A DNA stretch of 64,000 nucleotides from Gemmatimonadota bacterium (GTDB lineage: Bacteria; Gemmatimonadota; Gemmatimonadetes; Gemmatimonadales; Gemmatimonadaceae), in NCBI GenBank assembly GCA_026387915.1, contig JAPLKS010000014.1:124001-188000 (forward strand), in the 5' to 3' direction. Positions 37,557 through 57,906 of this stretch are shown piece by piece; positions within the stretch are counted from its first letter, which is position 1; every line of letters begins with the position of its first letter. The translations under genes were made by a program, and so were the position numbers. The notes under the pieces are model-generated. The model worked only from the letters and a program-made list of their open reading frames with translations. It searched no databases and was not told where the DNA came from.

Positions 37557-37565
37557 GAATCGACG

Positions 37566-40616
<3,051 letters not shown>

Positions 40617-40625
40617 GGGGCTACC

Positions 40626-42023
<1,398 letters not shown>

Positions 42024-42024
42024 C

Positions 42025-42528
42025 ATGATGCAAGGCATGATGGGCGCCTTCCAGGAGCTCGACGCGACGGTTGCCGCGATCGAAGAACTCAAGCACAAGA
42101 AGATCGGGCAGATCAGCGTCTTTACGCCGACGCCGCGCCACGAGCTGGAGCATGCGGTGCATGCACCACAGAGTCCGGTGCGCCGCTACACGCTTATTGG
42201 CGCGCTCTCCGGCATGGTGTTCGGCTACTGGATGGCGGTGTGGGCCTCGGAGTATTGGCCGCTGATCGTAGGCGGCAAGGCCGTTTCTACTTGGATACCG
42301 TACACGATTTTCGGCTTCGAGGTGATGGTGCTTGTGGGCGCCCTCTCTACGGTGGCCGGCATGTTCATTCACGCGCGCATCCCGCGCCTCACGTTGACCG
42401 TGGGTTACGACGCACGGTTCAGCCACGGCGACTATGGCATTTGGGTGGAATGCGCGCCCGACAAACTCAAGGACGCGGAAGCGATCCTGCGCCATCATGG
42501 CGCGGTGGAGGTGCGTGGTGACCGCTAA
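42025..42528 (+). CDS. actD: Alternative complex III subunit ActD (DUF3341)
   Basis: 167 aa DUF3341 protein with two transmembrane helices (about 57-78 and 92-113), a soluble N-terminal domain and a C-terminal segment with RFSHGDYGIWVECAP. This matches ActD, a small membrane subunit of alternative complex III with no cofactor. The start ATG lies one base after the actC stop, preceded by GGGAGG. A second ATG follows one codon later. The last 11 bases overlap the GTG start of actE. Confidence 0.93.
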   Translation: MMQGMMGAFQELDATVAAIEELKHKKIGQISVFTPTPRHELEHAVHAPQSPVRRYTLIGALSGMVFGYWMAVWASEYWPLIVGGKAVSTWIPYTIFGFEVMVLVGALSTVAGMFIHARIPRLTLTVGYDARFSHGDYGIWVECAPDKLKDAEAILRHHGAVEVRGDR

Positions 42529-43246
42529 CGTGTTTCGTCGCAGCGTCGCACTGGCGCTCCCCATCGTGCTGCTTAGCGCATGCAAAGGGTGGATCACCGA
42601 CTTCAAGCAGCAGCCGTCGGTCGGCACTTGGCAGGAGTTCAAGGCTGACTCGGGTGAACTGCAGGGCTTCCGCGGCCAGCCGGCGGGTTCTGTGAACACC
42701 AACGGCACCTTGATGGCCGACTGGCAGGTGAGTCATTCCAATCTCCCGGTCACCATCGATTCAATGAGCGGCGTACAGAATCCCGTGGCCGTGGACGAAC
42801 GCTCGCTCGCGAGCGGGCGCAAGTACTTCTCCATCAACTGCGCCGTCTGTCACGGCGACCTCGGCGACGGCAACGGCGCGCTCAAGCAGCTCAGCCCGAT
42901 GTACGCCTTTCCGCCGAGCCTGCTGATGGACATCACCAAGAATCGCACCGACGGCTACATCTGGGGCATGATGCGCAATGGGCGTGGCCTGATGGCCGCG
43001 GCTAATCGTATTGAAGAAACCGAGCGGTGGGACGTCGTGAACTACGTCCGCGGTTTGCAGGGCAGGTACCCGGTCGCGACAGGCCCCGTCGGTCGCCCCG
43101 GCGAAACGGGCGACAAGCTCCCGGGCTTCACCAAGCTCGGACCGCAGGTGCCCTCGCAGTACTTCCATCCGGTCGTCACTGAGCGGCCGATCAAGAAAGC
43201 GGAGGGCGCCGAGGGCGCTCCCGCGGCCAAACCGGAGGGCAACTAA
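42518..43246 (+). CDS. actE: Alternative complex III subunit ActE, monoheme cytochrome c lipoprotein
   Basis: 242 aa. The N-terminus is a lipoprotein signal with lipobox LLSAC at residues 18-22. One class I heme site, CAVCH, lies near residue 110, followed by GDLGDGNGAL and a Met-rich stretch (YIWGMMRNGRGLMAAA) that may supply the axial Met. The GTG at 42518, inside actD, is chosen because GGAGG lies a few bases upstream and it opens exactly at the signal peptide. An ATG at 42434 would add 28 out-of-character residues. ActE is a peripheral heme subunit at the periplasmic face. actF starts on the base after the stop. Confidence 0.93.
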   Translation: MTANVFRRSVALALPIVLLSACKGWITDFKQQPSVGTWQEFKADSGELQGFRGQPAGSVNTNGTLMADWQVSHSNLPVTIDSMSGVQNPVAVDERSLASGRKYFSINCAVCHGDLGDGNGALKQLSPMYAFPPSLLMDITKNRTDGYIWGMMRNGRGLMAAANRIEETERWDVVNYVRGLQGRYPVATGPVGRPGETGDKLPGFTKLGPQVPSQYFHPVVTERPIKKAEGAEGAPAAKPEGN

Positions 43247-44575
43247 ATGAGCGCGCATGAAACCGCCGCTCCGTCGCGTGAGCGTGTGATTGCCGCCGGC
43301 GCCAAGCCGATGCCGGCCATCCTCAAGCCGGCCTCGCTTGGGCTCCTGCTGCTCGGACTCGTGATTTTCATCTATGGAGTCGCCACCGGTAACAACCGGG
43401 CTTGGCACGCCTTTCAGGTGAACTGGCTGTTCTTCACAACCATTTCCTCGGCCGCGGTGATGTTTGTTGCGGTGCAGCGCATTACCACGGCGCGTTGGTC
43501 GCGCGGGGTGATCCGCTTCTTCGAGGGCTATGTCGCATTTTTGCCGGTCGCGTTCTTGGGCCTGTTGGTGCTGCTGTTCTTCGGTCGCGATCACGCGTAT
43601 CCGTGGTGGAACGAACTCGGCGCGCTCAAGCACGAAAAGCAGTTGTGGCTGGGGCACCGCTTCTTTGCGATTCGTGATGCGGCGGTGTTCTTCGTCATCA
43701 TGGGCATTCAGCTCTGGTATATCTGGACGTCGGTGCGACTCGACGTTGGTGTGTCGCCTGAGGCCGGTGCCGGCTGGGCCGCTGGCATCCGCGCTCGCAT
43801 GCGTGCGACCTTCGGCGAGGAGCGCCGCGAACTGCACTCCACGCACTCGCTGCAGGGCAAGCTCGCAGTCTTCATGGCGCTCATCTTCGGCTTCGGCTGG
43901 TGCGCGATCGCGTGGGATCAGTCGATGTCGCTCGACCCGCATTTCTTCAGCACGATGTACGGCTGGCAGGTGTTCATGGGCGGCTGGCTCGTGGCGCTGA
44001 TGACGCTTGCCGCGCTCGTGCGGTTCTTCCGGAATCACTTGCAGGCCGAAGACCTCGTGACGGACGCCCATTATCACGATCTCGGCAAGCTCTGCTTTGC
44101 CTTCACGGCGTTCTGGGGCTACCTGACGTTCAGTCAGTTCTTGGTGATTTGGTACGGCAATATGGTTGAAGAAACGCACTTCTTTACGCTGCGATTGAGC
44201 AACGCGTGGAAGGCGTGGACTCTTGGGGCCGGCGTGTTGACCTTTGCGCTGCCGTTCTTTGGCTTGCTGTCGGTGAAGGCCAAAATGTATTCGCCGGTCA
44301 TGTTGTTCTTTGCCGCCTGCAGCTTCGTGGGACTCTGGATCACCCGGTACGTCGAGGTGTATCCGTCGGTCTACGGGGTGTCGTACAACGCGCCGTTCCA
44401 TTTCTGGGAAGTCGGTATTTTCCTCGGATTCCTCGGCGCCTGGGGCTTCTGCTACACCTCGTTCATGGACGCCTTTCCCAAGTTTCGTGTGCTCCTGATC
44501 ACATCGGAGTTCCGGGACGAGGTGCAGATTCCCGTGGATGCACGCACGATGGAGCCGCTACCGGCGCACGAATAG
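43247..44575 (+). CDS. actF: Alternative complex III subunit ActF, second NrfD/PsrC-like membrane protein
   Basis: 442 aa polytopic protein with about ten transmembrane helices, distantly related to ActC. Conserved blocks include WHAFQVNWLFFTTISSAAVMF in parts near 53-73, FGWCAIAWDQSMSLDPHFFSTMYGWQVFMGG in parts near 215-245, and FWGYLTFSQFLVIWYGN near 288-305. ActF lies beside ActC in the membrane and is proposed to form a second proton path. It ends the act operon. A 10-base inverted repeat overlaps its stop codon, and a tRNA gene follows. Confidence 0.93.
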   Translation: MSAHETAAPSRERVIAAGAKPMPAILKPASLGLLLLGLVIFIYGVATGNNRAWHAFQVNWLFFTTISSAAVMFVAVQRITTARWSRGVIRFFEGYVAFLPVAFLGLLVLLFFGRDHAYPWWNELGALKHEKQLWLGHRFFAIRDAAVFFVIMGIQLWYIWTSVRLDVGVSPEAGAGWAAGIRARMRATFGEERRELHSTHSLQGKLAVFMALIFGFGWCAIAWDQSMSLDPHFFSTMYGWQVFMGGWLVALMTLAALVRFFRNHLQAEDLVTDAHYHDLGKLCFAFTAFWGYLTFSQFLVIWYGNMVEETHFFTLRLSNAWKAWTLGAGVLTFALPFFGLLSVKAKMYSPVMLFFAACSFVGLWITRYVEVYPSVYGVSYNAPFHFWEVGIFLGFLGAWGFCYTSFMDAFPKFRVLLITSEFRDEVQIPVDARTMEPLPAHE

Positions 44576-44846: not shown

Positions 44847-45551
44847 ATGTCGGTTGCTTTGCGGGACCAAATCGCGATTGATGCAGTAGGCGTGGCTCGG
44901 CGCTTTGGTGCGCGCTGGGTGCTGCGCGGCGTTGACCTACAGGTCCGCCCCGGTGAGATGGTGGGTCTCCTCGGCGCCAACGGCAGCGGCAAGAGTACGC
45001 TCCTGCGTATTCTCGGCACGCTGCTCAAGCCCAGCGCGGGCGGTGCCACGGTCTACGGCCATGACGTCGTGAAGTCGCCTGATGATGTGCGCCGGCAGAT
45101 TGGCTTCCTGGCACATACCCCCGGCCTCTACGACGACCTCACCGCGCGCGAAAACCTGCAGTTTGCTGCGTCCATGCTCGGCCTTGAGAACGCGAAGCTC
45201 GACGAAGCGCTCGATCGCGTCGGCCTTGGCGGCGTGCGCAACGAACGCGTGCGTGGCTTTTCGGCGGGCATGCAGCGCCGCCTGTCGATGGCTCGGTTGC
45301 TCCTGCGCAATGCGCGAGTACTGCTGCTCGACGAGCCCTACAGCAATCTCGATGTGGCCGGCATCTCGCTGATGAATGAGTTGATCGGGGAGTCGGTGAA
45401 GGGCGGGGGTGCCGCGTTGGTGGTGCTCCATGAACTCGCGCCGGCCGCCGCGGTACTCGACCGTACGGTGACCATCCGCGAAGGGCGCATTGATGAACCG
45501 GAAGGCGCAGCGCTCGATGCCGCGAACTTCGCGGTCGCCGGAGAGGGCTGA
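44847..45551 (+). CDS. ccmA: Heme exporter ATP-binding protein CcmA
   Basis: 234 aa ABC ATPase. Walker A is GANGSGKST (near 43), the signature region FSAGMQRRLSMARLLL, and Walker B LLLDEPYSNLD. FSAGM instead of LSGGQ is characteristic of CcmA. With CcmB and CcmC it forms the complex that releases heme-loaded CcmE on the periplasmic side. The gene begins the ccm operon, which continues through ccmH at 50712. Its stop overlaps the ccmB ATG by one base. Confidence 0.95.
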   Translation: MSVALRDQIAIDAVGVARRFGARWVLRGVDLQVRPGEMVGLLGANGSGKSTLLRILGTLLKPSAGGATVYGHDVVKSPDDVRRQIGFLAHTPGLYDDLTARENLQFAASMLGLENAKLDEALDRVGLGGVRNERVRGFSAGMQRRLSMARLLLRNARVLLLDEPYSNLDVAGISLMNELIGESVKGGGAALVVLHELAPAAAVLDRTVTIREGRIDEPEGAALDAANFAVAGEG

Positions 45552-46237
45552 TGTCCGCGCACGAAGACTGGCGCCGCGTTCGCGCAATCGTCTGGAAGGA
45601 CCTCACCACGGAGGGGCGTTCCAAGGCGGGATTCAACTCCGTGGCCGCGCTTGGCGTGACAATCCTGGTGTTGTTCGGCTTTGCCCTCGGCCCCGACGCG
45701 CAGGCACTGCGCGACGCAGCCGCCGGCGCGCTCTGGCTCGCGGTGCTCTTTGCCGGGGTATTGGCATTCAATCGGTCGTATCAGGTGGAGTTGGAGAGCG
45801 GTGCACTCGAACCGCTGCTGCTGTATCCTGGCTCCCGCTGGACGATTTTTGTGGGCAAACTGTTTGCGAATCTGATTTTCGTTGGACTCATGCTGGTAAT
45901 TGTCACCTTGGTGGGCATCGTGCTCTTTCAAGTGACGATTCCCCCCTCGTGGCCCAAGCTCGTCGCGGTCCTCGCGCTCGGCACCATCGGGCTGGTGTCC
46001 CTCGGCACGTTCTACGCGGCGATGGCGAGCCGTAGTCGCGCGCGCGAAGTGTTGCTCCCGTTGCTGTTGTTTCCAATGCTCGTTCCCGTGCTCCTCGCGG
46101 CCATGCAGGCCTCCAAAGTGTTGCTCAATGGCGATATGATGCACGAGGCAGGCGCGTGGATGAGCATGCTCATGGCGTACGACGTGATTTTCGTTGTGGC
46201 GCCGCTGCTCGCATTTGAACACGTCATCGAGGTCTGA
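45551..46237 (+). CDS. ccmB: Heme exporter membrane protein CcmB
   Basis: 228 aa with six hydrophobic helices and an N-terminal cytoplasmic start typical of CcmB (WKDLTTEGRSKAGFNS). Conserved stretches FNRSYQVELESGALEPLLLYPGSR (in parts near 75-98) and the AMASRSRAREVLLPLLLFPMLVP region near 157-180 identify the family. It partners CcmA in the cytochrome c maturation ABC complex. The first base of its ATG is the last base of the ccmA stop codon. Confidence 0.94.
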   Translation: MSAHEDWRRVRAIVWKDLTTEGRSKAGFNSVAALGVTILVLFGFALGPDAQALRDAAAGALWLAVLFAGVLAFNRSYQVELESGALEPLLLYPGSRWTIFVGKLFANLIFVGLMLVIVTLVGIVLFQVTIPPSWPKLVAVLALGTIGLVSLGTFYAAMASRSRAREVLLPLLLFPMLVPVLLAAMQASKVLLNGDMMHEAGAWMSMLMAYDVIFVVAPLLAFEHVIEV

Positions 46238-46243
46238 TCCCCT

Positions 46244-46954
46244 GTGACTCAATCTGTCGACACCAATCCTGATCTCCCGAAACCCGGCTACTGGCCGTGG
46301 TACGGGGTCTTCTGCTTCCTGTTTCTGATCGGGTCGCAGGCCTCTGGCCTGTTGCTCTCGGTGCCCGATCGCGACATGGGGCATCTGCAAAAAATCATGT
46401 ACGTGCACGTGCCAGCGGCGTGGATTATGTCGCTCACGTTCGTCGTCGTCCTCTATTACAGCTTCCGCTATCTGTGGAAGCAGCAGGAGAACGACGACTT
46501 GGTCGCGGCGAGCGCGGCGGAAGTCGGCGCCGCGTTTTGCGGACTCACGCTGGTGCTCGGCATGATTTGGGGCAAGCCGACGTGGGGCGTCTGGTGGACG
46601 TGGGACGCCCGCCTCACCTCCACGCTCGTGCTGTTCCTGATCATGGTCAGCTACCTCGCGTTGCGCGCCTTCATTGACGATCCGCATCGCCGAGCGCAGT
46701 GGAGTGCCGCCGTGGGCATTTTGGGCGCGATCAATGTGCCGATCGTGTACATGTCCGTGAAGTGGTGGCGGACGCTGCATCAGGTGCAGTCCATGCCGTC
46801 GACGGTGGACCCCATGTACGTGATCAACCTGCGCCTGAATGCGTTCGCGTTTTTGTTCCTGATGATTTACTTCATTCGCCGTCGGTACGAAGCCGCGCGG
46901 TTTGAGCGGGCGGCAGAACTGGCGGTGCAGGCCGCCGCGCTCGGGAGGCGCTGA
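46244..46954 (+). CDS. ccmC: Heme-handling membrane protein CcmC
   Basis: 236 aa with six transmembrane helices. The tryptophan-rich WGKPTWGVWWTWDARLTS motif near 106-123 is the periplasmic heme-binding loop of the heme-handling family. Conserved His residues lie in MYVHVPAAWIM near 50 and VKWWRTLHQ near 168, flanking that loop. CcmC loads heme onto CcmE. The start is GTG at 46244. ccmD follows with two bases between. Confidence 0.94.
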   Translation: MTQSVDTNPDLPKPGYWPWYGVFCFLFLIGSQASGLLLSVPDRDMGHLQKIMYVHVPAAWIMSLTFVVVLYYSFRYLWKQQENDDLVAASAAEVGAAFCGLTLVLGMIWGKPTWGVWWTWDARLTSTLVLFLIMVSYLALRAFIDDPHRRAQWSAAVGILGAINVPIVYMSVKWWRTLHQVQSMPSTVDPMYVINLRLNAFAFLFLMIYFIRRRYEAARFERAAELAVQAAALGRR

Positions 46955-46956
46955 CC

Positions 46957-47118
46957 ATGGGTGCCATTGGGTCGGAGAACAACTGGTCGTATGTCGCGGC
47001 CGCCTTCATCATTTCGTGGTGTGTGATTCTGGGGTATACCGTGCATGTGCATCGGGTGTTGGCGCGCGCACGGAAAGCATACGAAGACGCATCGGCCTCG
47101 CGGCCGAAGGGGGCATAG
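46957..47118 (+). CDS. ccmD: Small heme-exporter accessory protein CcmD
   Basis: 53 aa. A single transmembrane helix (about residues 10-32, SYVAAAFIISWCVILGYTV) is followed by a basic tail with HRVLARARKAYED. Length, topology and position between ccmC and ccmE are those of CcmD, which helps release holo-CcmE. ATG 46957 lies two bases after the ccmC stop with GGAGG nearby, and the stop TAG touches the ccmE ATG. It is too short for typical ORF listings. Confidence 0.88.
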   Translation: MGAIGSENNWSYVAAAFIISWCVILGYTVHVHRVLARARKAYEDASASRPKGA

Positions 47119-47574
47119 ATGGCTGGCATTTCGCGGAAACAGGTATGGATGATCGTCGCCGGCGCCGTGTTGGTGAGCGCGTTCGGCTGGTTGCTGATCG
47201 GTGGGCTCGACAAGAACGTCGTGTTCTTTTTGACTCCGAAGGAGCTGCTGGCCAAGGGGAACTCCGGCTATGAAGTGCCGGTGCGTCTCGGCGGGCAGGT
47301 GAAACCCAAGAGCGTGCAGTGGGACGACAAGGCATTGGATTTGCGCTTTGTGCTCACCGACGGCGCCGGCGATGTGTCGGTGCACGCCAAGGGTGCTCCG
47401 CCGCAGATGTTCCGCGACGGCATGGGCGTGGTGGTCGAGGGCAAGTATGGCCGCGACGGCGTCTTTCAGTCGAGCAGCCTGATGATCAAGCACTCCAACG
47501 AATACCGTCCGCCCAAGGCCGGTGAAAAGCCGCAGGAAATGTACAAGACGCTTATCAAGGGGAGCGGCGCGTGA
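47119..47574 (+). CDS. ccmE: Periplasmic heme chaperone CcmE
   Basis: 151 aa. One N-terminal membrane anchor (about 9-28), then an OB-fold domain. The heme-attachment motif is IKHSNEYRPP, with His125 as the covalent heme ligand and Tyr129 as the axial partner, the His-x-x-x-Tyr type. GQVKPKSVQWDDKALDLRF is a typical strand pair in parts near 57-75. It receives heme from CcmC and passes it to CcmF. It starts directly after ccmD and overlaps ccmF by 4 bases (GTGA). Confidence 0.95.
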   Translation: MAGISRKQVWMIVAGAVLVSAFGWLLIGGLDKNVVFFLTPKELLAKGNSGYEVPVRLGGQVKPKSVQWDDKALDLRFVLTDGAGDVSVHAKGAPPQMFRDGMGVVVEGKYGRDGVFQSSSLMIKHSNEYRPPKAGEKPQEMYKTLIKGSGA

Positions 47575-49517
47575 TTGGAACGCTGGCTCGCGACGCCCTC
47601 CTCGTCTCGCTCGCTGTTATCACCTTCGGTCTGTTGATTGGGCCGATCGCCATCGCCAAGGGACGCCGAGACTGGATTCCGTTGTCGTACGCGGCGGTGT
47701 ACACAAACTTTTTGCTCATCACAATCGCGACGGTTGCGATGATTGTGGCGCTGGTCACACACGACTTTTCGGTGTCGTATGTGGCGCAGGTGGGCAGTCG
47801 GGCCACGCCGCTCCTGTATACGGTGATCTCGCTCTGGGGCTCGCTCGAAGGCTCCATCTTGTTCTGGGGCTGGGTGCTGGCCATGTACGGCGCGGCCGTG
47901 GTGTTCATCAACCACCGCCGCCCAGGCGACCTCGTCCCGTACGCGTCCACCGCGCTGCTCGCGGTGTCGCTGTTCTTCACCATCCTGCTCGTCGGGCCGG
48001 CTGATCCATTCAAACCGGTCTTCCCGGTGCCGTTGGATGGCCCAGGTCCCAATCCGCTGCTGCAGAATCACATCCTGATGGCGGTGCACCCGCCGCTGCT
48101 CTATTTGGGCTACGTCGGCATGGCGGTGCCCTTTGCTTTTGCGATTGGTGCGATGCTCTCCGGTGAAGTGGAGCACGACGATTGGATTCGCATCACTCGC
48201 CGCTGGACACTCGCCAGCTGGGCGTTTCTCTCGGCAGCCATTATTGCCGGTATGTGGTGGTCGTATGAAGTGCTCGGATGGGGCGGCTACTGGGCGTGGG
48301 ATCCCGTTGAAAACGCGTCGTTCATTCCGTGGCTGACGGCGACCGCGTTCCTCCACTCCGCGATGGTGCAGGAGCGTCGCAAGATGTTGCGCCTCTGGAA
48401 CGTGAATCTCGTGGTGGGCACCTTCGTGCTCACGATCCTCGGGACGTTCCTCACGCGTTCGGGCATTATCTCGTCGGTGCATGCGTTTACGACGGGCGTC
48501 ATCGGCTATTACTTCTTGGCCTTTATTGCGGTCGTATTGCTCGTGTCGCTGATTTTTGTTGCGGGCAACTCGCTCAAGCTCAAGACGGTGGGACGGTTCG
48601 ATTCGCCGGCGTCGCGCGAGACGGTGTTTCTGCTCAACAATCTGTTCCTCACGGTGTTCATGTTCACCGTGCTCATTGGCACGCTCTTTCCGCTGGTGGC
48701 GGAGGCGGCGCGCGGCGTGAAGGTGAGCGTGGGTGAGCCGTTCTTCAATAAGATGACGCTGCCGGTGATGGTCACGCTGCTGTTTCTGATGGGCGTGGGC
48801 CCCGCCTTGCCGTGGAAGAGCGCGTCGCCAGAGCTGGTGAAGCAGAAGTTGCTGCCGCCCTTTGCGTTGGCGGCCGTCTTTGGCGCGATCGCGCTATTGA
48901 TGGGTATTCGCAATGTGTACGGCGTGCTCGCGTTCACCTTTACGGGCTACGCGTTGTTTGCCAATCTTCGCGAGTTCTACATCGGTGCGGCAGCGCGTCG
49001 GCGTGCGCATGGCGAGGGATGGCTGACGGCGCTCGTGTTGCTCGTGGGCGGAAATCGTCGTCGCTATGGCGGCTACGTGGCGCACATGGGCGTGTTCATG
49101 GTGGCGCTCGGCATTGCGGCCAGTTCGTCGTTGCGTACGGAGCAGGAAGCCACGCTCGAGCCCGGCAAGTCGTTGACCATTGCCGGACGTACGATCACGT
49201 TGCGCAATGTGTGGGGGCGTGAGGAGCCGCAGCGTTCGGTGATTGGCGCCACGCTCGATATTTCGACCGGTGGCAAGGTGGAGCCGCGCATGAACTTTTA
49301 TCCCACCTCGCAGCAGCCGGTGCCCACGCCTGAGGTTCGGAGCTATTGGTCCGGCGATCTCTATGCGAACCTGCAGGCCTTCCAGCCGCAGGGAAAGAAC
49401 GCGACGGTCAAAATGATTTGGGAGCCGCTCGTGCCGTGGATTTGGCTCGGCGGGGGCGTGGTGGTGCTCGGCGCACTCATTGGAATTATGCCGGCGGTTC
49501 GCCGGAGGGACGCATGA
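47571..49517 (+). CDS. ccmF: Cytochrome c heme lyase subunit CcmF
   Basis: 648 aa polytopic membrane protein. The WGGYWAWDPVENASFIPWL motif near 234-252 is the periplasmic heme-binding signature, and the N-terminal half contains the SLWGSLEGSILFWGWVL and HPPLLYLGYVGMAVPFAF helices. GRRRYG-type NRRRYGGYVAHMGVFMVALG near 495-515 precedes a periplasmic domain. It ligates heme to apocytochromes together with CcmH. The GTG start overlaps the ccmE stop, and the TGA stop overlaps the ccmG ATG by 4 bases. Confidence 0.96.
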   Translation: MIGTLARDALLVSLAVITFGLLIGPIAIAKGRRDWIPLSYAAVYTNFLLITIATVAMIVALVTHDFSVSYVAQVGSRATPLLYTVISLWGSLEGSILFWGWVLAMYGAAVVFINHRRPGDLVPYASTALLAVSLFFTILLVGPADPFKPVFPVPLDGPGPNPLLQNHILMAVHPPLLYLGYVGMAVPFAFAIGAMLSGEVEHDDWIRITRRWTLASWAFLSAAIIAGMWWSYEVLGWGGYWAWDPVENASFIPWLTATAFLHSAMVQERRKMLRLWNVNLVVGTFVLTILGTFLTRSGIISSVHAFTTGVIGYYFLAFIAVVLLVSLIFVAGNSLKLKTVGRFDSPASRETVFLLNNLFLTVFMFTVLIGTLFPLVAEAARGVKVSVGEPFFNKMTLPVMVTLLFLMGVGPALPWKSASPELVKQKLLPPFALAAVFGAIALLMGIRNVYGVLAFTFTGYALFANLREFYIGAAARRRAHGEGWLTALVLLVGGNRRRYGGYVAHMGVFMVALGIAASSSLRTEQEATLEPGKSLTIAGRTITLRNVWGREEPQRSVIGATLDISTGGKVEPRMNFYPTSQQPVPTPEVRSYWSGDLYANLQAFQPQGKNATVKMIWEPLVPWIWLGGGVVVLGALIGIMPAVRRRDA

Positions 49518-50167
49518 ACTGGAAACGGGCGTCGATCGCATCATTGTTCGCGATTCCCGTCGTCCTGCTGTTGGCATGGGGGATGACGCGCGATCCCAAG
49601 GACATCCCGTCTCCGCTGCCGGGGCGAGAGGCGCCGACGTTCACGTTGCCGGTGTTCGCGCCGGGGCAGCCACCGTTGCAGCGCAGCGTGGGCGACACGA
49701 TTCGCCTCGCGGATTATAAGGGCGAAGTGGTCGTGCTGAATTTTTGGGCGTCGTGGTGCCTCGCGTGCCGCGATGAACACACCACGCTCAGCGAAGTGGC
49801 GGCGACCTATGCTGGCAAACCCGTGCATTTCTACGGGGTGCTCTACAATGACTCTCCGCCGAATGGCACCAAGTGGATCGCGGAGATGGGCGGGCAGAGT
49901 TATCCGTCGCTGAATGATCCAGGGGCGCGCACGGCCATCGACTACGGGCTGTATGGTGTGCCCGAGACGTTCTTCCTGGACCGCAACGGACGGGTCGCGT
50001 ACAAGCACACGGGCCCAGTGTCGCCGGCGGTGTTGCAACGTGTTGTGGATTCATTGATGGCGGTGCCTGCCGCAGGAGCACCTACCGCGCCGGCCGCGCC
50101 CACCGCGCCGGCCGCTACTACTCCCGCCACTGCTCCCGCCACTGCTCCCGCCACGAAGGGGATGTAA
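49514..50167 (+). CDS. ccmG: Thiol:disulfide interchange protein CcmG/DsbE
   Basis: 217 aa. An N-terminal anchor helix (about 7-26) is followed by a thioredoxin fold with active site WCLAC (Cys82, Cys85) in FWASWCLACRDEH. The cis-Pro segment GVPETFFLDRNG is present. It keeps the apocytochrome CXXCH cysteines reduced for heme ligation. The C-terminal 35 residues are an Ala/Pro/Thr repeat tail not usual for the family. ATG 49514 overlaps the ccmF stop; the longer upstream frame is internal to ccmF. Confidence 0.93.
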   Translation: MNWKRASIASLFAIPVVLLLAWGMTRDPKDIPSPLPGREAPTFTLPVFAPGQPPLQRSVGDTIRLADYKGEVVVLNFWASWCLACRDEHTTLSEVAATYAGKPVHFYGVLYNDSPPNGTKWIAEMGGQSYPSLNDPGARTAIDYGLYGVPETFFLDRNGRVAYKHTGPVSPAVLQRVVDSLMAVPAAGAPTAPAAPTAPAATTPATAPATAPATKGM

Positions 50168-50169
50168 GG

Positions 50170-50712
50170 ATGTCACGTCACCTGAAGGTGGTGCTCGCCG
50201 CTTTTGCTCTCGCCGCCACCTACGCCAGCGCACTCGGAGCGCAGCAGAGTGCCTCCGATTCGGCGAAGGCTGCCGCCGCTGCATCTATTGCTTCTGGCGC
50301 TCCGCAGGAAGGCGCGCAGAGCGCGGAGCAGCGGGCCGCGCTCAACTTGCGCACCGCCAATGACTCCGCGCTGGAGCGGCTCACGACGACCGTGGCCTCC
50401 GAACTGCGTTGCCCTGTGTGCCAAGGGCTCTCCCTGCAGGCGTCGCCGTCTGAGCTGGCCCAGCAGATGCGTGGCTTAGTAAAGGAGCAACTCGCAAGCG
50501 GAAAAACCCCCGATCAGGTAAAAGCCTACTTCGTCAGCAAGTACGGGGAGTGGATCCTGCTGGCGCCGAAAGCGCAGGGCTTCAACCTGTTGGTGTATCT
50601 GCTTCCAGCGCTTGTAGTTGTCGGCGGTGGGGCGTTCGTTTATGTTATGGTACGGCGGTGGAGTAGCCCGTCTGGGAGTGATACCGTAACTACACAGGAC
50701 CACGAGTCATAA
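50170..50712 (+). CDS. ccmH: Cytochrome c maturation protein CcmH
   Basis: 180 aa. A signal peptide (about 1-25), an Ala/Ser-rich spacer, then the CcmH/CycL domain with LRCPVCQG (Cys81, Cys84) and the helix pair ELAQQMRGLVKEQLASGKTPDQVKAYFVSKYGEWILLAP, read in parts. A transmembrane helix lies near 138-158, followed by a short cytoplasmic tail. It holds apocytochrome c by mixed disulfide for CcmF. The TPR partner CcmI is not found as a fusion or as the next gene. It is the last ccm gene. Confidence 0.94.
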   Translation: MSRHLKVVLAAFALAATYASALGAQQSASDSAKAAAAASIASGAPQEGAQSAEQRAALNLRTANDSALERLTTTVASELRCPVCQGLSLQASPSELAQQMRGLVKEQLASGKTPDQVKAYFVSKYGEWILLAPKAQGFNLLVYLLPALVVVGGGAFVYVMVRRWSSPSGSDTVTTQDHES

Positions 50713-50879: not shown

Positions 50880-52370
50880 ATGATGCGTTCCCGGGTCAAT
50901 ACATTGGCGCTGCTGTCGCTTGCGTCGCTCCTCGTAGCCGCCTGTACGTCTGAGAAGGTGGTGTACCGCGACGGGCCGAACTACGCGCAGCCGACCACCG
51001 GCGCCGCCAGCTTTGTCGGCTATTCCGACGAAGCGAGCAAAAAGACGGTGTGCGGTTCCTGCCACGTCGAGAAGCAGTCCAAGTGGGCCACCACCAAGCA
51101 TGCCAGCGCGTGGAAGGATCTCTCCTCCAGTGGCTCCATGCAGACGTACTGCCAGCCCTGCCACACGGTCGGACAGAATGGCAATCCGAGCGCGGATGCC
51201 AAAGCTGGTTTCGGCGACGCGGCCGCGGCGCAATATCATGACGTGCAGTGCGAAAGCTGCCACGGCGCTGGCCTCTCGCACGTGTCGAACCCGAGCTTGA
51301 CCAACTATCCGTTGGCTTCGATCGCGGCTGACACCTCGGCAAAGAACGGTTGCGGCGAATGCCACAGCGGCACGCACAACCCGTTCGTGAACGAATGGCG
51401 CGTCTCGGGTCACGCCGCCACCTGGGAAGTGTCGCACAACAGCGTCGACCCGTACTGCCAGGGGTGCCACACGGGCCAGGGCGCGCTTGCCACGTGGGGC
51501 ATTACCAGCAACTACGTCGAGAAGAACAACACGGCCGGCGGAACGGTGAAGATGCTCGCCGCCACCTGCGCCACCTGCCACGATCCGCACGGCTCGGCCA
51601 ACAAGGCGCAACTGCGCTTCCCGATCAACACGGCCAGCACCGAAACGAATCTTTGCATGAAGTGCCACCAGCGTCGCGGCACCTTCCAGGACGCCATTGC
51701 GCAGGGTCGTAACTCCGTGCACTCGCCGGAAGGCCCGACCCTCCTCGGACAGGCCGGTTGGTTCCCCCCGGGCATGAGCATTTCGGACTCGATCGTCAGC
51801 ACGCACGGCAACGTCTCCAAGAATCCGAATCTCTGCGCGACCTGTCACGTGTCGAAGTACGCGGGCACGGACCCGCTCACCAAGGCCGCCGTCAACAGTA
51901 CGGGTCACCGTTTCCTCGCCACGCCGTGCGTCGACGCCTCGGGTCTCCCGACGCTCACGCAGACCTGTGCCGTGACCGCCATGAGCTTCCGCTCCTGCGT
52001 CGCCAGCGGTTGTCATGGTACGGAATCGCTTGCTCGCGCTGCCTTCAACACGGCAACAGCTCGCGTCACGTTGCTGAACAACGAAGGCACGCGCCTCGTC
52101 AACCTCATCAAGGCGATCCCGGCCAACGCCGCCGACTGCACCTTCTCCGCCACCAAGCCGTATAACAGCTGCTTGGGGCTCCAGTTCAACCAGAGTGTGG
52201 TCACGAAAGTGGGCGGCATTATCCACAACCCCTTCCTGCTCGAACAGCTGATGGTGGCTTCGATCACGCAGGTCAAGAAAGATTACGGCGTCACTGTGTC
52301 GGCGAACATCAGCCTAGAGCCGCAGCTGAAGCGGCCGCCCACGGTTCCGCTCAGTGGAACGCAGCACTAA
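50880..52370 (+). CDS. Lipoprotein multiheme cytochrome c (8 CXXCH plus one CX4CH)
   Basis: 496 aa. A lipoprotein signal has lipobox VAAC near residue 22. Eight canonical heme sites follow: CGSCH, CQPCH, CESCH, CGECH, CQGCH, CATCH, CMKCH and CATCH. CVASGCH near residue 373 is a ninth site with four spacer residues. The sites end there; the last 115 residues have no Cys-His motif. It is probably anchored to the outer or inner membrane. No named family was recognised beyond decaheme/octaheme-like cytochromes. ATG 50880 has GGAGG 10 bases before it; ATG 50883 and TTG 50871 are alternatives. It opens a cluster with two more multiheme genes and a beta-barrel, suggesting a role in long-range electron transfer. 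Confidence 0.87.
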   Translation: MMRSRVNTLALLSLASLLVAACTSEKVVYRDGPNYAQPTTGAASFVGYSDEASKKTVCGSCHVEKQSKWATTKHASAWKDLSSSGSMQTYCQPCHTVGQNGNPSADAKAGFGDAAAAQYHDVQCESCHGAGLSHVSNPSLTNYPLASIAADTSAKNGCGECHSGTHNPFVNEWRVSGHAATWEVSHNSVDPYCQGCHTGQGALATWGITSNYVEKNNTAGGTVKMLAATCATCHDPHGSANKAQLRFPINTASTETNLCMKCHQRRGTFQDAIAQGRNSVHSPEGPTLLGQAGWFPPGMSISDSIVSTHGNVSKNPNLCATCHVSKYAGTDPLTKAAVNSTGHRFLATPCVDASGLPTLTQTCAVTAMSFRSCVASGCHGTESLARAAFNTATARVTLLNNEGTRLVNLIKAIPANAADCTFSATKPYNSCLGLQFNQSVVTKVGGIIHNPFLLEQLMVASITQVKKDYGVTVSANISLEPQLKRPPTVPLSGTQH

Positions 52371-52379
52371 GTAGGCCTC

Positions 52380-52419
52380 GCGTGCACGGTCGGATCGACC
52401 CGGAGTCGACCGTGCACGC
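52380..52419 (+). terminator. First of two tandem hairpins between multiheme genes
   Basis: Thirteen-base perfect arms (gcgtgcacggtcg / cgaccgtgcacgc) surround a 14-base loop, starting 10 bases after the stop of the upstream cytochrome gene. No U-run follows, so it may act as an attenuator or a processing site. Confidence 0.5.
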
Positions 52420-52424
52420 AACGA

Positions 52425-52463
52425 CGCGGGACCGGCGGGTCACATTGCCCCGCTGGTCCCGCG
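52425..52463 (+). terminator. Second of two tandem hairpins between multiheme genes
   Basis: About 15 pairs including one G-U wobble (cgcgggaccggcggg against cccgctggtcccgcg), loop of 9 bases, ending 28 bases before the next start codon. A short gtttc follows. Confidence 0.5.
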
Positions 52464-52491
52464 ACGCCGTTTCAACCCTGAGCCAACGACC

Positions 52492-54474
52492 GTGATGATC
52501 ACGCCGCTGCTCTACCTGCTGAGCCAAGCGCCCGAAGTGCATTACAAGGGCGGTGCCTCTGGAACGACGGTGGAGGGAGTCAATACCGTCGCCAAACTGT
52601 TCCGCTTTCTGTTTTCCACGGTGCCACAGTGGGTGCAGCTCGCCGGAATCCTCATTGGCGGCCCACTCGCGCTGATCGTCGCGTGGCAGTGCTGGAAGCA
52701 CCGCCAGCAGATCATTGGCTGGTTCAAGGCCAAGTCGCGCCTCTACAAAATGCTGCTGGTGGGCAGCGTTGGCGTGGTGGGACTCGCCGGCGGCGGCACG
52801 GGGCTCGTGGGGTACAACTACATGATGACGAACAACGACTTCTGTCAGTCGTGTCACGTCATGGATACGGCGTGGAACCGCTTCCAAGCCAGCGCACATA
52901 AAGAACTGCAGTGCCACGCCTGCCATCGGCAGTCGATCTTTGTCAGTAGCATCGAGCTCTACTGGTGGGTCACCGAGCGTCGCATGGCGGTGCCAGCGCA
53001 CGACAAAGTCCCCACCAAGATCTGCACCGAATGCCACATGCGGGCACAAACCGACTCGACGCGCACGAACGTGCTCAAGTCGGCCGGCCATCTGGTGCAT
53101 CTCAAGTCCGATTCCAGCGCGCTCAAGAACGTGCAGTGCGTCAGTTGCCACGGCCGCGACTTCCATCTGTTCCGGCCCAACAACAGCACCTGTATGCAAA
53201 GCGGCTGTCACACCGACAAGCGCATCAAGCTTGGCGTGATGTCCGACCAAGGCTTCATGCATTGCACGGTCTGTCACGCCTTCCGCGGCAAAGTGGCCGA
53301 TTCGTCCACCGTCAAGCAGGGCGAGCAGCGCCTGGCTCCCAACGCCACGCAATGCACATCGTGCCACGAAATGAGCGACAAGTTCTCCAAGTACAACTTC
53401 GCGGCCGATCCACATAAGGGCGGCTGCGGCAGTTGCCACAACCCGCACAAACAGGTCGAACCCAAGGAGTCGTACAAGACCTGCGCCACCGCGCAGTGCC
53501 ACGCCAATGCCGATACGCTCACCGCGTTCCATCGCGGGCTCGGCGGACACGCACTCGAGGATTGCGGCACCTGCCACAAGCCGCACACCTGGAAGGTGCA
53601 GGGCACGCAGTGTCTCGACTGTCACAAGACCATCTACCAGGATCGCCCGAGTCTGCGGCACCTGCTCAAACCGTCCAGAGCCTCCGCGAAGACGGCGTCG
53701 GCGATGACGCAGGCCGGGCCTTCCACTGTTCTCTTAGCGAGTGACCCGTCGCGTCGCTCGTCTCACCGCTCGCCCCGGCGAGCGCTCCCTCGCGCGGTGA
53801 CGGTTGCCAACGCGCGCTGGGTGCCGCAGGCGCCGGTGTCGAACGCCAAGAATTCAGCGCAGAGCGCCGCACCGGCTACGGCGCCGATAACGGCGCCAGC
53901 TGATTCCGCCGCCTTCCCGCACTCGCGCCACAAGTCTGTGAAGTGCGCCGAGTGCCATGGGGCGGGGGATTACCACGGTCAGTTGAAGTTCACGGCCCCC
54001 GACGGCTGTCGTGGCTGTCATCACGCGGCCGCGCAGAAAAGTGCGTGCGCCAAGTGCCACGCCACCGCACCAAAGCCGCGCGACGTGAGCGTGACGCTTA
54101 ACGTCACGCCGCGCAAAGCGCCCGTGACGCGCGGGTTGCCGTTCCGTCATGAGGTGCACGGCAAGCTCGAGTGCGCCAAGTGCCACGGCGCCGATGCCAA
54201 TAAGACGGTCGTGCAAAGTTGCACGTCGTGCCACGCGGAGCATCACGCGGCTGCACGCGATTGCACCAGTTGCCACACCGGTGCGCAAAAGGGGCATGAT
54301 CGCGCGTCGCACGAGAGCTGCACTACCTGTCATACCGGTGCCAAGTCGGCGGCGCTCACGCTCACGCGTGCGCTCTGCTTGACCTGTCACGAGAAACAAA
54401 AGACCCACGAACCGGGCGGCAACTGCGCCGCTTGTCACGCCATTTCGTCGCACGCGACGGGAGGGCGACACTAA
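52492..54474 (+). CDS. NapC/NrfH-like membrane-anchored multiheme cytochrome c (about 20 heme sites)
   Basis: 660 aa. Two N-terminal transmembrane helices (about 44-66 and 85-107) lead into NNDFCQSCHVMD, which resembles the quinol-oxidising heme of NapC/NrfH proteins. The first half carries nine CXXCH and two CX4CH sites (CMQSGCH near 234, CATAQCH near 331). The second half (about 475-660) is a c7/c3-like module with nine CXXCH sites. Between them, about residues 392-470, lies an Arg/Ser/Ala-rich linker with rare codons AGA and TTA, where another frame is also open; a frameshift or gene fusion is possible. A role taking electrons from menaquinol to periplasmic hemes is inferred. The stop overlaps the beta-barrel start (TAATG). 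Confidence 0.82.
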   Translation: MMITPLLYLLSQAPEVHYKGGASGTTVEGVNTVAKLFRFLFSTVPQWVQLAGILIGGPLALIVAWQCWKHRQQIIGWFKAKSRLYKMLLVGSVGVVGLAGGGTGLVGYNYMMTNNDFCQSCHVMDTAWNRFQASAHKELQCHACHRQSIFVSSIELYWWVTERRMAVPAHDKVPTKICTECHMRAQTDSTRTNVLKSAGHLVHLKSDSSALKNVQCVSCHGRDFHLFRPNNSTCMQSGCHTDKRIKLGVMSDQGFMHCTVCHAFRGKVADSSTVKQGEQRLAPNATQCTSCHEMSDKFSKYNFAADPHKGGCGSCHNPHKQVEPKESYKTCATAQCHANADTLTAFHRGLGGHALEDCGTCHKPHTWKVQGTQCLDCHKTIYQDRPSLRHLLKPSRASAKTASAMTQAGPSTVLLASDPSRRSSHRSPRRALPRAVTVANARWVPQAPVSNAKNSAQSAAPATAPITAPADSAAFPHSRHKSVKCAECHGAGDYHGQLKFTAPDGCRGCHHAAAQKSACAKCHATAPKPRDVSVTLNVTPRKAPVTRGLPFRHEVHGKLECAKCHGADANKTVVQSCTSCHAEHHAAARDCTSCHTGAQKGHDRASHESCTTCHTGAKSAALTLTRALCLTCHEKQKTHEPGGNCAACHAISSHATGGRH

Positions 54475-55916
54475 TGCGGCGCCATCTCCTCCGTCTCGCG
54501 CTCGTGGTCGGCCCCGCCTGCGCTGCTGCGCAGGGTGTGCGGGTGACGGGCGTTACCTATGTGCAGGGCATTGAGCTTCGCCCCCTCGTGTACGATTCCA
54601 TCGCTCCGTATTTCACGGTCGGTGGTGGCGAGTGGCGCCTTACGCCGGACGGAACGCCGGCGCGTTGCTTACCGAACGCGGACTTCTGTGTCTTTCAGCG
54701 ATCGGGCGAGCGCATTCAGGCGGCTCCACTCCTGCAGGACCTGTCCGTGAGTTCTTGGGGCCTCGGCGAGGGCGTCAGCGTGCACGTGGATCTGCGCGGG
54801 CGCACGCAGCTCACCACACAGGGGCTGATCTATCCGCGGTCGGACACGCACTTCGAAGTGATGGACGCCTACGCTGACGTGGATCGGCAGTGGGGTCGTG
54901 CACGCATTGGACGCCAGTGGATTGCCGGTGGACTCGGCGTCTACAATTTCGACGGCGCCAATCTCGTGTATCGGCGGTCGCGATATTCTGTGGAAGGCTG
55001 GGCGGGTCGCGCCCTCGAGGCGGGGCTCAACGTTGGCTACAGCAGCTCTGAGTTGGCCGCCATCGAAAACTTACCCCCCGATCAAAACGGATACATTTTC
55101 GGCGTGCGCGGGCGTATGCGCCCCAATGCGGTGACGTCGGCAACCGCGACGTATCAGCGGGTGTTGGTTGCTGACCGCAGTGGACTCTATTCCGAGCGCG
55201 CCGCGTTCGACGCCACCACGCGCGCGTACGGCGCCAGTATCGACATGGCGCTGGCCTACGATTTTGCGAGCGGCGCGTGGAACGAAGCGCGGCTTCGTGT
55301 GGGGCGCGCGGGGCTGCACACCCTCGGCGTCTCGGTTGAAGCACGGCATTCCGCTCCGTTCTTTGAGACCTGGACTATTTGGGGTGCGTTCTCTCCGGTC
55401 GCGTTCAACGAAGCACGCGCCACGCTCGATTGGCGCCCCGGGAGTGTGCCGGTGATTCTGTCGGCGCATGGCGCGTATCGGCGCTACAACGAGTCCGATG
55501 CGGGCTTTACGCTCCGCAGCAATGGATGGCGAGCCGGTGCGTCCGCGCTGTTGACCGGGTCTAGCGAGTTTTCTGGGCACGCGAGCTATGACGTGGATAT
55601 TGGCGACGGCGCCTCGCGGAACGATGCGCGCGTATCCGTGCGCTGGAATCCAAGCACCGAACGCTCCATTGGCATCACGGGTTCTGCGCTGCAGAACATC
55701 TATGAGTTCAAGATCGGTACTGGACGCGTGATGGGGCTCGCGCTTGACGCCGCCACGCCCATTACCAGCGACGTTCGCCTGATGGCCGATGTTGGCTTTT
55801 ATCGACAGCTGTTCTCAAAGGGTGCGCCAGGTCCCGATTGGACCCAGCGGCGCGCCTCGCTCCGGCTTGAGTGGACGCTAGGCCGCGACCCCGGCCAGAT
55901 GGGGAAGGCCCAATGA
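54474..55916 (+). CDS. Predicted outer-membrane beta-barrel protein (porin-like partner of multiheme cytochromes)
   Basis: 480 aa. A signal peptide ends near CAAAQ (residue 19). The rest is made of alternating hydrophobic/polar strands with many Tyr, Trp and Arg residues and short turns, for example VSVHVDLRGRTQL, ARIGRQWIAGGLGVYNF, ARLRVGRAGLHTLGVSV and DARVSVRWNPS, typical of a transmembrane barrel of roughly 18-22 strands. The C-terminal strand RASLRLEWTLG is followed by a short tail. No Cys-His heme motifs. No family was recognised. Its 1-base overlap with the upstream 20-heme gene and 4-base overlap with the downstream 16-heme gene suggest a cytochrome-threaded porin, as in MtrB or OmbB systems, but sequence relationship to those is not shown. 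Confidence 0.78.
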   Translation: MRRHLLRLALVVGPACAAAQGVRVTGVTYVQGIELRPLVYDSIAPYFTVGGGEWRLTPDGTPARCLPNADFCVFQRSGERIQAAPLLQDLSVSSWGLGEGVSVHVDLRGRTQLTTQGLIYPRSDTHFEVMDAYADVDRQWGRARIGRQWIAGGLGVYNFDGANLVYRRSRYSVEGWAGRALEAGLNVGYSSSELAAIENLPPDQNGYIFGVRGRMRPNAVTSATATYQRVLVADRSGLYSERAAFDATTRAYGASIDMALAYDFASGAWNEARLRVGRAGLHTLGVSVEARHSAPFFETWTIWGAFSPVAFNEARATLDWRPGSVPVILSAHGAYRRYNESDAGFTLRSNGWRAGASALLTGSSEFSGHASYDVDIGDGASRNDARVSVRWNPSTERSIGITGSALQNIYEFKIGTGRVMGLALDAATPITSDVRLMADVGFYRQLFSKGAPGPDWTQRRASLRLEWTLGRDPGQMGKAQ

Positions 55917-57415
55917 AACGTCTCATGCTGATCGTCCTGTTGGCGTTTGTGCCCGGACTGCTGTCGGCGCAGGGGGCGGAGCCATTTCCGCACGCCAAGC
56001 ACGCCAAGCTCTTTCCCGTGTGCTCCGGCTGTCACGTGGGGATTACGGCTGGCGATGCATCGCGCGTCTTTCCGCAAGCCGCGCAGTGTCAGTCGTGCCA
56101 CGACGGCAAAAAGCAAAAGGTCGTGGTGTGGTCCGCGCCTGCCGCGCGTGGTGCTGGATTGCTGACCTTCTCGCATCCCAAGCACACGGAGCGGAGCGCC
56201 GACGCCAGTTGCGCGTCGTGTCATGGAACGAACGGTGATCGCTCGCCGTGGATGAATGTGGGGCGCGTGGCGCAGTCGCGTTGCGCAAGTTGCCACACGC
56301 ATCAGGCGTCCGAGCACTACGCGGACGACAATAAGTGCGCGACCTGTCACCGCACGTTGGTCTCGGCCAGCGCGCTCACCGATGCCAAGATTGCGGCGCT
56401 CCCCAAGCCGTCGTCACACGCGCGCGCGGACTTTGCGCAATCGCACGGGGCAGCGGCAGCCGCGAGCACCGCGGCCTGTGCCACCTGCCATGCACGCGAG
56501 AGTTGCGCGCGCTGTCACGTCAATTCGGGCCGTTCTCCCACCATCGCGTCGTTAGCAACGGATGCGCGTGTGGCGCGCCTCGCCGCAACCAAGCCGGCCG
56601 TGTATCCCGTGCCGAGTGACCATAAGGACATCGGGTTTAGTTTGTTGCATGGCGACGCGGCGCGCACCAACACGACGCGCTGCGCGGTTTGTCATGCGCG
56701 CCCGAGTTGCGCCACCTGCCATGTCGGCGACGGCGCGGCGAAAGTGATCGCGCTCCTTCCCGATGCAGCCGAAGCCAAGGGACGTGGTGTGCAGTTGCGC
56801 CACGTGGCCACGCTGCTGGCCCGCAACGCCATTCCCGTTGGACTCGCGCGACCGGGCGAGTGGATTCCCAAGCCGCATGCCAACGACACCACTGTTCGGC
56901 GCGTGCGCGTGCACCCCGCTGGCTTTGCCCGAGGCCACGGTCCCGCAGCCGCGGCCGAAGCGCTCAGCTGCCAGGGCTGTCATGCGCAGTCGTTCTGCAA
57001 AGATTGCCATGTGGGCGAGAAGGTCGGTCCGCGCCGGTACCACGTCGCGAACTTCGTTACGGGGCACGCGGCCGAGGCCTATGGCCGCGACACCGAGTGC
57101 AGTACCTGTCATAACACGACGGCCTTCTGCCGCGCCTGTCACCAGCAGGCGGGGTTGGCCTCGCAGGGGAATGGCCGGAGCATCGGCTATCACAACGCCC
57201 AGCCGCAATGGTTGCTCGAGCACGGCCGCGCGGCCCGGCAGGAACTGAACACCTGCGCGTCGTGTCACCAACAGCGTTATTGTTTGCAGTGTCACTCGGA
57301 TCTGGGCTGGCGCGTGAGTCCGCATGGACCGAACTTCGATGCGAGGCGTTACGCCAACCGCAATCGGCAAGAGTGCCTGCGGTGTCACTTCAAAGATCCG
57401 CTCGCCGGTAAATAG
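55913..57415 (+). CDS. Periplasmic 16-heme cytochrome c
   Basis: 500 aa. A cleavable signal peptide ends at LLSAQG (about 1-22). Sixteen CXXCH sites were counted. From the middle onward they occur as close pairs, CXXCH-x4/5-CXXCH, five times (for example CATCHARESCARCH, CAVCHARPSCATCH, CASCHQQRYCLQCH), separated by spacers of about 40-90 residues. The density, one heme per 31 residues, suits an extended heme wire. It could sit in or next to the barrel encoded upstream, as MtrA sits in MtrB, although MtrA has 10 hemes. The start overlaps the barrel stop by 4 bases (ATGA). No transmembrane helix besides the signal. Confidence 0.86.
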   Translation: MKRLMLIVLLAFVPGLLSAQGAEPFPHAKHAKLFPVCSGCHVGITAGDASRVFPQAAQCQSCHDGKKQKVVVWSAPAARGAGLLTFSHPKHTERSADASCASCHGTNGDRSPWMNVGRVAQSRCASCHTHQASEHYADDNKCATCHRTLVSASALTDAKIAALPKPSSHARADFAQSHGAAAAASTAACATCHARESCARCHVNSGRSPTIASLATDARVARLAATKPAVYPVPSDHKDIGFSLLHGDAARTNTTRCAVCHARPSCATCHVGDGAAKVIALLPDAAEAKGRGVQLRHVATLLARNAIPVGLARPGEWIPKPHANDTTVRRVRVHPAGFARGHGPAAAAEALSCQGCHAQSFCKDCHVGEKVGPRRYHVANFVTGHAAEAYGRDTECSTCHNTTAFCRACHQQAGLASQGNGRSIGYHNAQPQWLLEHGRAARQELNTCASCHQQRYCLQCHSDLGWRVSPHGPNFDARRYANRNRQECLRCHFKDPLAGK

Positions 57416-57437: not shown

Positions 57438-57902
57438 ATGCTGACGATGTATCGCCCGTCGCTTCGCGGGTTGCTGGTTGTCGCTGCGGTCGGAGTGCTG
57501 GCCTGCGGGAAAAAGGATGATGCCAGCAAGATTCCGCTTGGCGCCAACGCTAAGATGCCGGCGGACAGCGTCCACAAGGGCATGGTCGCACCTGCCGGTG
57601 TGGCACCGGAACTGACCGCGGCCTCCAAGGCGGCACTCGACAGCGGGAATGCCCTCTTCCGCAAGAAGGCGTTCGCGGATGCGTTGGCGCAGTACCGCAA
57701 AGCAGCGGCGGGTTCGCCGGGGCACGCGTCGCCGGCCTACGGCATCTACATGGTGGCGCGCGCGACGAACAACGTCCCACTCGCCGACAGCGCGCTCGCC
57801 GATATTCGTGCGCACAACACCATCACGACGGACAATGTGCCCGACACGGCGGCGTTCAAGGCCGTCCCAAAGAAATCCGACGTCAAACTTCCCAAGGCCT
57901 AG
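57438..57902 (+). CDS. Small lipoprotein with TPR-like helical region
   Basis: 154 aa. A lipoprotein signal has lipobox VLAC near residue 23. A Gly/Ala/Pro-containing spacer follows, then a helical repeat-like segment (about 63-115) with SGNALFRKKAFADALAQYRKAAAGSPGH in parts, which reads as one tetratricopeptide-like unit. GAGAGG lies just upstream of ATG 57438. It follows the 16-heme gene after 22 bases and may belong to the same transcript; a scaffold role is possible. No known family was identified. Confidence 0.75.
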   Translation: MLTMYRPSLRGLLVVAAVGVLACGKKDDASKIPLGANAKMPADSVHKGMVAPAGVAPELTAASKAALDSGNALFRKKAFADALAQYRKAAAGSPGHASPAYGIYMVARATNNVPLADSALADIRAHNTITTDNVPDTAAFKAVPKKSDVKLPKA

Positions 57903-57906
57903 CGCC

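Follow-up and report, generated by a model that had tools for sequence, protein, structure and literature searches.

The window analysed here, a stretch of 64,000 nucleotides of a Gemmatimonadota genome (G000:C14:124001-188000; genome of 3.58 Mb in 23 contigs), carries four + strand genes, cytA, cytB, a barrel gene and cytC, which lie head to tail across positions 50880-57415 and likely encode a trans-outer-membrane porin-cytochrome conduit. The block is best read as such a conduit from a new family, found so far only in Gemmatimonadota and set apart from the Omb/Oma systems by description. The four genes, and the segment of cytC proposed to lie in the barrel, are:

50880..52370, + strand: cytA, lipoprotein nonaheme cytochrome and candidate cell-surface terminal cytochrome (8 CXXCH and 1 CX4CH; lipobox LVAAC; profile matches to OmhA/OcwA)
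52495..54474, + strand: cytB, candidate quinol oxidase and periplasmic bridge (NapC/NrfH-like head, two predicted transmembrane (TM) helices, 18 CXXCH and 2 CX4CH)
54474..55916, + strand: predicted outer-membrane beta-barrel of 480 amino acids (aa), heme-free (signal peptide, ~22 long strands, near-invariant C66/C73)
55913..57415, + strand: cytC, exported cytochrome with 16 hemes that is proposed to pass through the barrel (signal peptide, 16 CXXCH, directly 3' of the barrel gene in 52 of 52 loci)
56912..57388, + strand: C-terminal heptaheme core of cytC, proposed barrel-embedded segment (7 CXXCH and 7 further invariant His in 32 aligned sequences)

Heme sites and gene products of the block

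An earlier note on this DNA had placed four open reading frames (ORFs) in the block, and all four were located there. It had also estimated about 45 heme sites, divided as 9, 20 and 16, which agrees exactly with the motif count of 42 CXXCH and 3 CX4CH (9+20+0+16 = 45). All 42 CXXCH motifs between 51051 and 57374 fall in the gene frames on the + strand. The remaining ~57 kb of the window hold only 12 CXXCH, 5 of them within the 5-heme ActA, and the heme-motif density of the block is therefore not due to chance. The genes had been described as mostly overlapping. This applies to the cytB stop and the barrel-gene start, which overlap by one base (TAATG at 54472), and to the barrel gene and cytC, which overlap by four bases (ATGA at 55913), but cytA and cytB are separated by a gap of 124 bp.

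The 480-aa product did not match any entry of Pfam, NCBIfam or the PDB sequences in single-sequence and profile searches. Its AlphaFold2 model, built from a 35-sequence alignment, shows a signal helix followed by ~22 long strands (mean predicted local distance difference test (pLDDT) 83.8; predicted template-modelling score (pTM) 0.77), in agreement with the outer-membrane barrel that had been proposed for this protein. Structure comparison of the model with Foldseek and VIA-align returned outer-membrane barrels in general, ushers included; MtrB (6r2q_B) was found at Foldseek rank 8 with an E value of 4.9e-9 and a TM-score of 0.43. Since these matches are generic, they support a barrel, not any particular barrel family. 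C66 and C73 are near-invariant in the family and may form a disulfide. Neither the apparent barrel-cytC fusions of ~1000 aa (L033, L040 and L041) nor the long barrel ORFs of 800-1020 aa (L042, L064 and L081) are real fusions; in both cases reading frames in GC-rich DNA were extended too far.

An alignment of 32 cytC homologs showed that the last seven CXXCH motifs and seven further His are invariant (residues 334-492), and this heptaheme core is kept even in short 9-12-heme variants that are missing much of the N-terminal part. The N-terminal heme modules are variable across homologs. In the Mtr system, MtrA contacts MtrC at the cell surface through its C-terminal heme (PMC7198977). By analogy, the invariant core of cytC would be the part that spans the outer membrane inside the barrel, with the variable N-terminal modules facing the periplasm.

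The head of cytB resembles NrfH, as had been suggested in the earlier note, which described the protein as a NapC/NrfH-like inner-membrane cytochrome with extra heme modules. Two TM helices are predicted at about 47-65 and 88-106, the head carries a CxxCHxM motif, and a profile comparison with NrfH (2j7a) gave 44 bits over the head region. Against Pfam NapC/NirT (PF03264) the protein scored 20.9 bits, where the curated cut-off is 24.1. The head is followed by c3/c7-type heme modules, and the 20 heme sites are conserved in homologs. The cytB protein differs from NapC/NrfH, ImcH and CbcL in carrying these 20 hemes in a single chain. ImcH homologs have 3 TM helices, 6-10 hemes and a CX3CH site beside the TM segment, and CymA has 4 hemes (PMC6295460); cytB departs from the ImcH features with its two predicted TM helices, a CXXCH as first site and 20 hemes.

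For cytA, a lipoprotein multiheme cytochrome with nine sites as had been noted earlier, the homologs also have nine heme sites, mostly as eight CXXCH and one CX4CH. Both the lipobox Cys and the nine proximal His are near-invariant in the alignment. The best profile match in the PDB was 6qvm with 68.5 bits over profile positions 61-386, which cover most of the heme domain; from its title, 'cytochrome cf', we take this entry to be OmhA of Carboxydothermus ferrireducens. OcwA (6i5b; PMC6703420) was matched with 55 bits in several stretches, and it is likewise a nonaheme protein. Many of the residues matched to OmhA and OcwA are heme motifs. Both proteins serve Gram-positive Fe(III) reducers as surface reductases (PMC7829351, PMC6703420). 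These bacteria are monoderms and have no barrel; cytA comes from a diderm and is a lipoprotein. The nearest relatives of OcwA are Gram-negative nonahemes (PMC7829351). For cytA, a place on the outer cell surface is proposed.

Among the weaker profile matches of cytA (MtrA 35 bits, octaheme nitrite reductase (ONR) 32 bits, hydroxylamine oxidoreductase (HAO) 21-23 bits), those to ONR and HAO bring up another explanation. In it, an enzyme in the periplasm or at the cell surface would be served by the cytochromes, with cytA as a nitrite/hydroxylamine reductase from the OcwA/ONR/HAO superfamily, and the barrel would act as a common porin for substrates. The ONR and HAO matches would fit such an enzyme, as would the in vitro nitrite reduction by OcwA, whose sequence holds His for nine bis-His hemes (PMC6703420). 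At least 9 further His are conserved in cytA, which is enough for bis-His ligation of its hemes; because OcwA has enough His yet reduces nitrite, the conserved distal His of cytA are compatible with an open heme. On the other hand, the invariant pair is formed by the barrel and cytC, not by the barrel and cytA, and both cytC and cytB are heme-wire types without a catalytic domain. No curated enzyme family was matched above cut-off: in the comparison with soluble nitrogen- and sulfur-cycle enzymes, which the earlier note had named as a possible refutation, none of the cytochromes matched at the curated cut-off, and cytA was closest to OmhA/OcwA. We therefore consider an enzyme system highly improbable.

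Distribution and partner exchange in the phylum

Soils, sediments and lakes commonly harbour Gemmatimonadota. Of 298 Gemmatimonadota genomes sampled, 84 have the barrel and 87 have cytC, and 83 have both (Fisher p ~1e-67, not corrected for phylogeny). In all 52 fetched loci cytC lies directly 3' of the barrel gene. The full order cytA-cytB-barrel-cytC was observed in 29 of 45 untruncated loci, although in 4 of these 29 (L031, L032, L048 and L058) the cytB ORF was matched only in part. The four genes thus co-occur across the class in the survey that had been proposed in the earlier note. A scan of 84,980 species with one 10-residue barrel motif gave 74 confirmed loci, all from Gemmatimonadota-type metagenome-assembled genomes (MAGs), one of which is titled only 'uncultured bacterium'.

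The neighbourhoods of the barrel loci were viewed within the ~20 kb fetched (~10 kb from the barrel). Two further untruncated loci (L052 and L066) retain cytB. Of all 16 untruncated loci without the full order, 10 have a NapC-like cytochrome with 21-24 hemes and/or a 19-heme cytochrome b561-domain protein (CbcL-like, either whole or split into pieces); both of these alternative inner-membrane partners are of quinol-oxidase type. The partners seen across the untruncated loci indicate that the outer-membrane pair of barrel and cytC is constant and that the quinol-facing partner is exchanged. For barrel and cytC, tree distances are correlated, with r 0.78 overall and 0.91 within taxonomic families.

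The occurrence of the barrel is patchy, even within the genus of the window. Two barrel lineages are present in the family of the window, and because one of them nests among those of another family, the trees suggest a transfer or an ancient duplication of the block.

Large multiheme clusters stand near the barrel family in L049, L050, L056, L062, L068 and L073, with a CbcL-like protein of ~950 aa (19 CXXCH and a cytochrome b561 domain) and 21-24-heme NapC-like, 11-heme and 9-heme cytochromes. Pieces of such clusters were seen in L043-L045, L063-L065 and L078. In L075, L077 and L082 the block is located beside ActB/ActC-like (molybdopterin/FeS, NrfD-type) genes and a tetra- or pentaheme cytochrome, which suggests a second quinol-linked complex of the alternative complex III (ACIII) or Qrc type.

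Electron path and comparison with known systems

The earlier note had seen in the block the parts list of an extracellular electron-transfer route from the quinone pool to the cell exterior, and the barrel prediction, the co-occurrence of the genes and the match of cytA to OmhA/OcwA support this. In the proposed path, cytB, anchored in the inner membrane, would take electrons from menaquinol or ubiquinol at its NapC/NrfH-like head, and its remaining hemes would carry them into the periplasm. There, the N-terminal heme modules of cytC would accept the electrons, and the C-terminal heptaheme core would carry them across the outer membrane, with the ~22-strand barrel as its sheath and insulation. 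The surface lipoprotein cytA would then spread them to an extracellular acceptor such as a metal oxide, a humic quinone or another cell.

Several results weigh against this path. The cytC model has a pLDDT of 69.6, with the proposed embedded part mostly below 70, and a fold search with it gave no match, the model being too poor for such a search. The VIA-align list for the barrel is led by TonB receptors (Z up to 19.5) and OprD-type porins, which are generic matches. In 4 of the 45 untruncated loci (L046, L055, L059 and L060) no recognised inner-membrane partner was found within ~10 kb, and cytA is missing beside the barrel in some loci.

If the block is a conduit, electrons are likely to flow outward, and the conduit probably exports electrons from quinol. 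Genes for RuBisCO and for a photosynthetic reaction centre were not found in the genome, which encodes several heme-copper oxidases, and these observations favour a heterotroph that exports electrons. The conduit could also work inward in a lithotrophic or mixotrophic metabolism, with Fe(II) or Mn(II) outside the cell, or a partner cell, as electron donor and the quinone pool or the oxidases as recipient. For this direction it can be said that NapC-type (CymA) and CbcL/MtoC-type cytochromes have been proposed to work both ways (PMC6295460), that the organism has several heme-copper oxidases, and that one barrel-positive MAG has the isolate name MnB_13 (L133). The missing RuBisCO and reaction centre argue against it, as does the position of cytA nearest to the surface reductases OmhA/OcwA. 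Inward flow seems unlikely.

The block shares its proposed working principle with MtrCAB, MtoAB and PioAB, where the Mtr principle is a 26-strand sheath around a heme wire (PMC7198977). A barrel and an exported multiheme cytochrome are encoded side by side, together with a surface lipoprotein multiheme. However, the barrel, with its 480 aa, is shorter than MtrB/PioB, is predicted to have ~22 strands and does not match PF11854 or TIGR03509. Compared with the decaheme MtrA/DmsE, cytC has 16 hemes, and it matched no NCBIfam family, TIGR03508 included. In the NCBIfam search, the MtrC/OmcA family TIGR03507 matched neither cytA nor cytC.

The same genome also carries a separate MtrAB-type pair (G000:C9, locus L157, 1408-7822), which allows a direct comparison. 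Its MtrA-like decaheme (TIGR03508, 253.6 bits) is located beside an MtrB/PioB-family barrel, which the PF11854 model detects with 252 bits and TIGR03509 with 189 bits, below the cut-off of the latter. When the alignment of the block barrel was compared with this MtrB-like protein by hhalign, the probability was 0.6%. A profile comparison of cytC with the MtrA-like protein aligned only 52 columns, around heme motifs. By these sequence comparisons, the block barrel and cytC are not relatives of the MtrAB pair beyond heme motifs, and the difference from Mtr and Pio systems that the earlier note had claimed is borne out. With neighbouring genes for a 4-heme cytochrome and for cytochrome c6-like, cytochrome b6-like and Rieske proteins, L157 is apparently an Mtr-type conduit coupled to a bc-type complex.

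The PCC3/PCC4 systems of Fe(II) oxidisers likewise combine a porin with unusually heme-rich cytochromes (PMC5566968), but the porins and surface cytochromes of PCC3 are far bigger, with up to 42 strands and a median of 34 hemes. The 5-TM inner-membrane protein that defines PCC3/PCC4 is not among the four genes, each protein having at most two predicted TM helices. Since the block fails to match the Mtr barrel, decaheme and MtrC families and lacks this 5-TM protein, it is distinct from both Mtr and PCC3/PCC4.

The likeness to the Geobacter-type Pcc systems (OmbB-OmaB-OmcB, ExtABCD) lies in the gene set, as the porin, a periplasmic multiheme and an outer-membrane lipoprotein multiheme stand side by side in both. 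The block could therefore belong to Pcc (Omb/Oma/Omc), or to some other named porin-cytochrome family, as a strongly diverged member. Heme numbers vary among Pcc systems, with as many as 14 in the periplasmic cytochromes of Ignavibacterium (PMC4245776). Compared by description, not by sequence, the exported cytochrome of the block has 16 instead of 8 hemes and the surface cytochrome 9 instead of 12. The block also has a dedicated 20-heme quinol module, unlike Geobacter Pcc. A divergent Pcc is unlikely in our view, because no porin family of NCBIfam or Pfam and no PDB chain was matched, and the 74 relatives retrieved with the 10-residue pattern all point to Gemmatimonadota.

A more far-reaching interpretation, to which we give slightly less than an even chance, is that the block represents an independently evolved, Gemmatimonadota-only class of conduit. 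Such a class would join a barrel of 22 strands, similar in size to a TonB receptor, to an invariant heptaheme segment of ~160 aa in place of the plug. It would form a fixed outer-membrane socket for exchangeable surface cytochromes and inner-membrane quinol-oxidising cytochromes (20-heme NapC-like or CbcL-like), and some cells would have a separate MtrAB as well. The division into a fixed part (barrel and heptaheme core) and a modular part (quinol and surface cytochromes) offers a direct comparative test, and it bears on whether outer-membrane wires arose several times.

In the open-access literature searched, with subscription journals and preprints lying outside it, this gene set is not described; an earlier sighting is possible in a 2026 karst study with a figure of porin-cytochrome clusters by phylum (PMC13264449), and the MHCscan survey (PMC11475568) may also include loci of this kind. 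For Gemmatimonadota and extracellular electron transfer, the literature searched contains only a single genome with MtrCAB (PMC8805035), a small number of CbcL/ImcH homologs (PMC6295460) and overall counts of multiheme proteins or Cyc2 (PMC9769843). With a conduit present in more than a quarter of the sampled genomes and invisible to MtrB/PioB models, marker-based surveys would miss much of the electroactive potential of the phylum.

Gene neighbourhood

Three further features lie near the block:

57438..57902, + strand: TPR-like lipoprotein, which is probably encoded by a fifth gene of the block (start placed by comparison with homologs; homologs beside cytC in at least 10 loci)
44847..50712, + strand: System I cytochrome c maturation genes (ccm; CcmB, cytochrome c assembly proteins (CcmC/CcmF), CcmE, CcmH)
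36834..44575, + strand: alternative complex III ActA-F, another quinol-oxidising complex (5-heme ActA, molybdopterin/FeS ActB, NrfD-type ActC, ActD, mono-heme subunit)

The earlier note had put the block behind ccmABCDEFGH and ACIII. Upstream of it we indeed found CcmB, CcmC/CcmF-type proteins, CcmE, CcmH, an ABC ATPase (CcmA-like) and an ACIII containing ActD (148.5 bits), while the assignment of CcmG corresponds to a redoxin-domain ORF only (49346-50167). Homologs of the ccm genes adjoin the block mainly within the window's own family, and the neighbourhood of ccm and ACIII is mostly a trait of this family, not of the conduit system. Each of cytA, cytB, the barrel gene and cytC is single-copy in the genome. 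The TPR-like lipoprotein is a possible assembly factor of the conduit. Its gene is overlapped by an AhpC/TSA-type redoxin ORF (57649-58374), the true start of which is probably near 57900.

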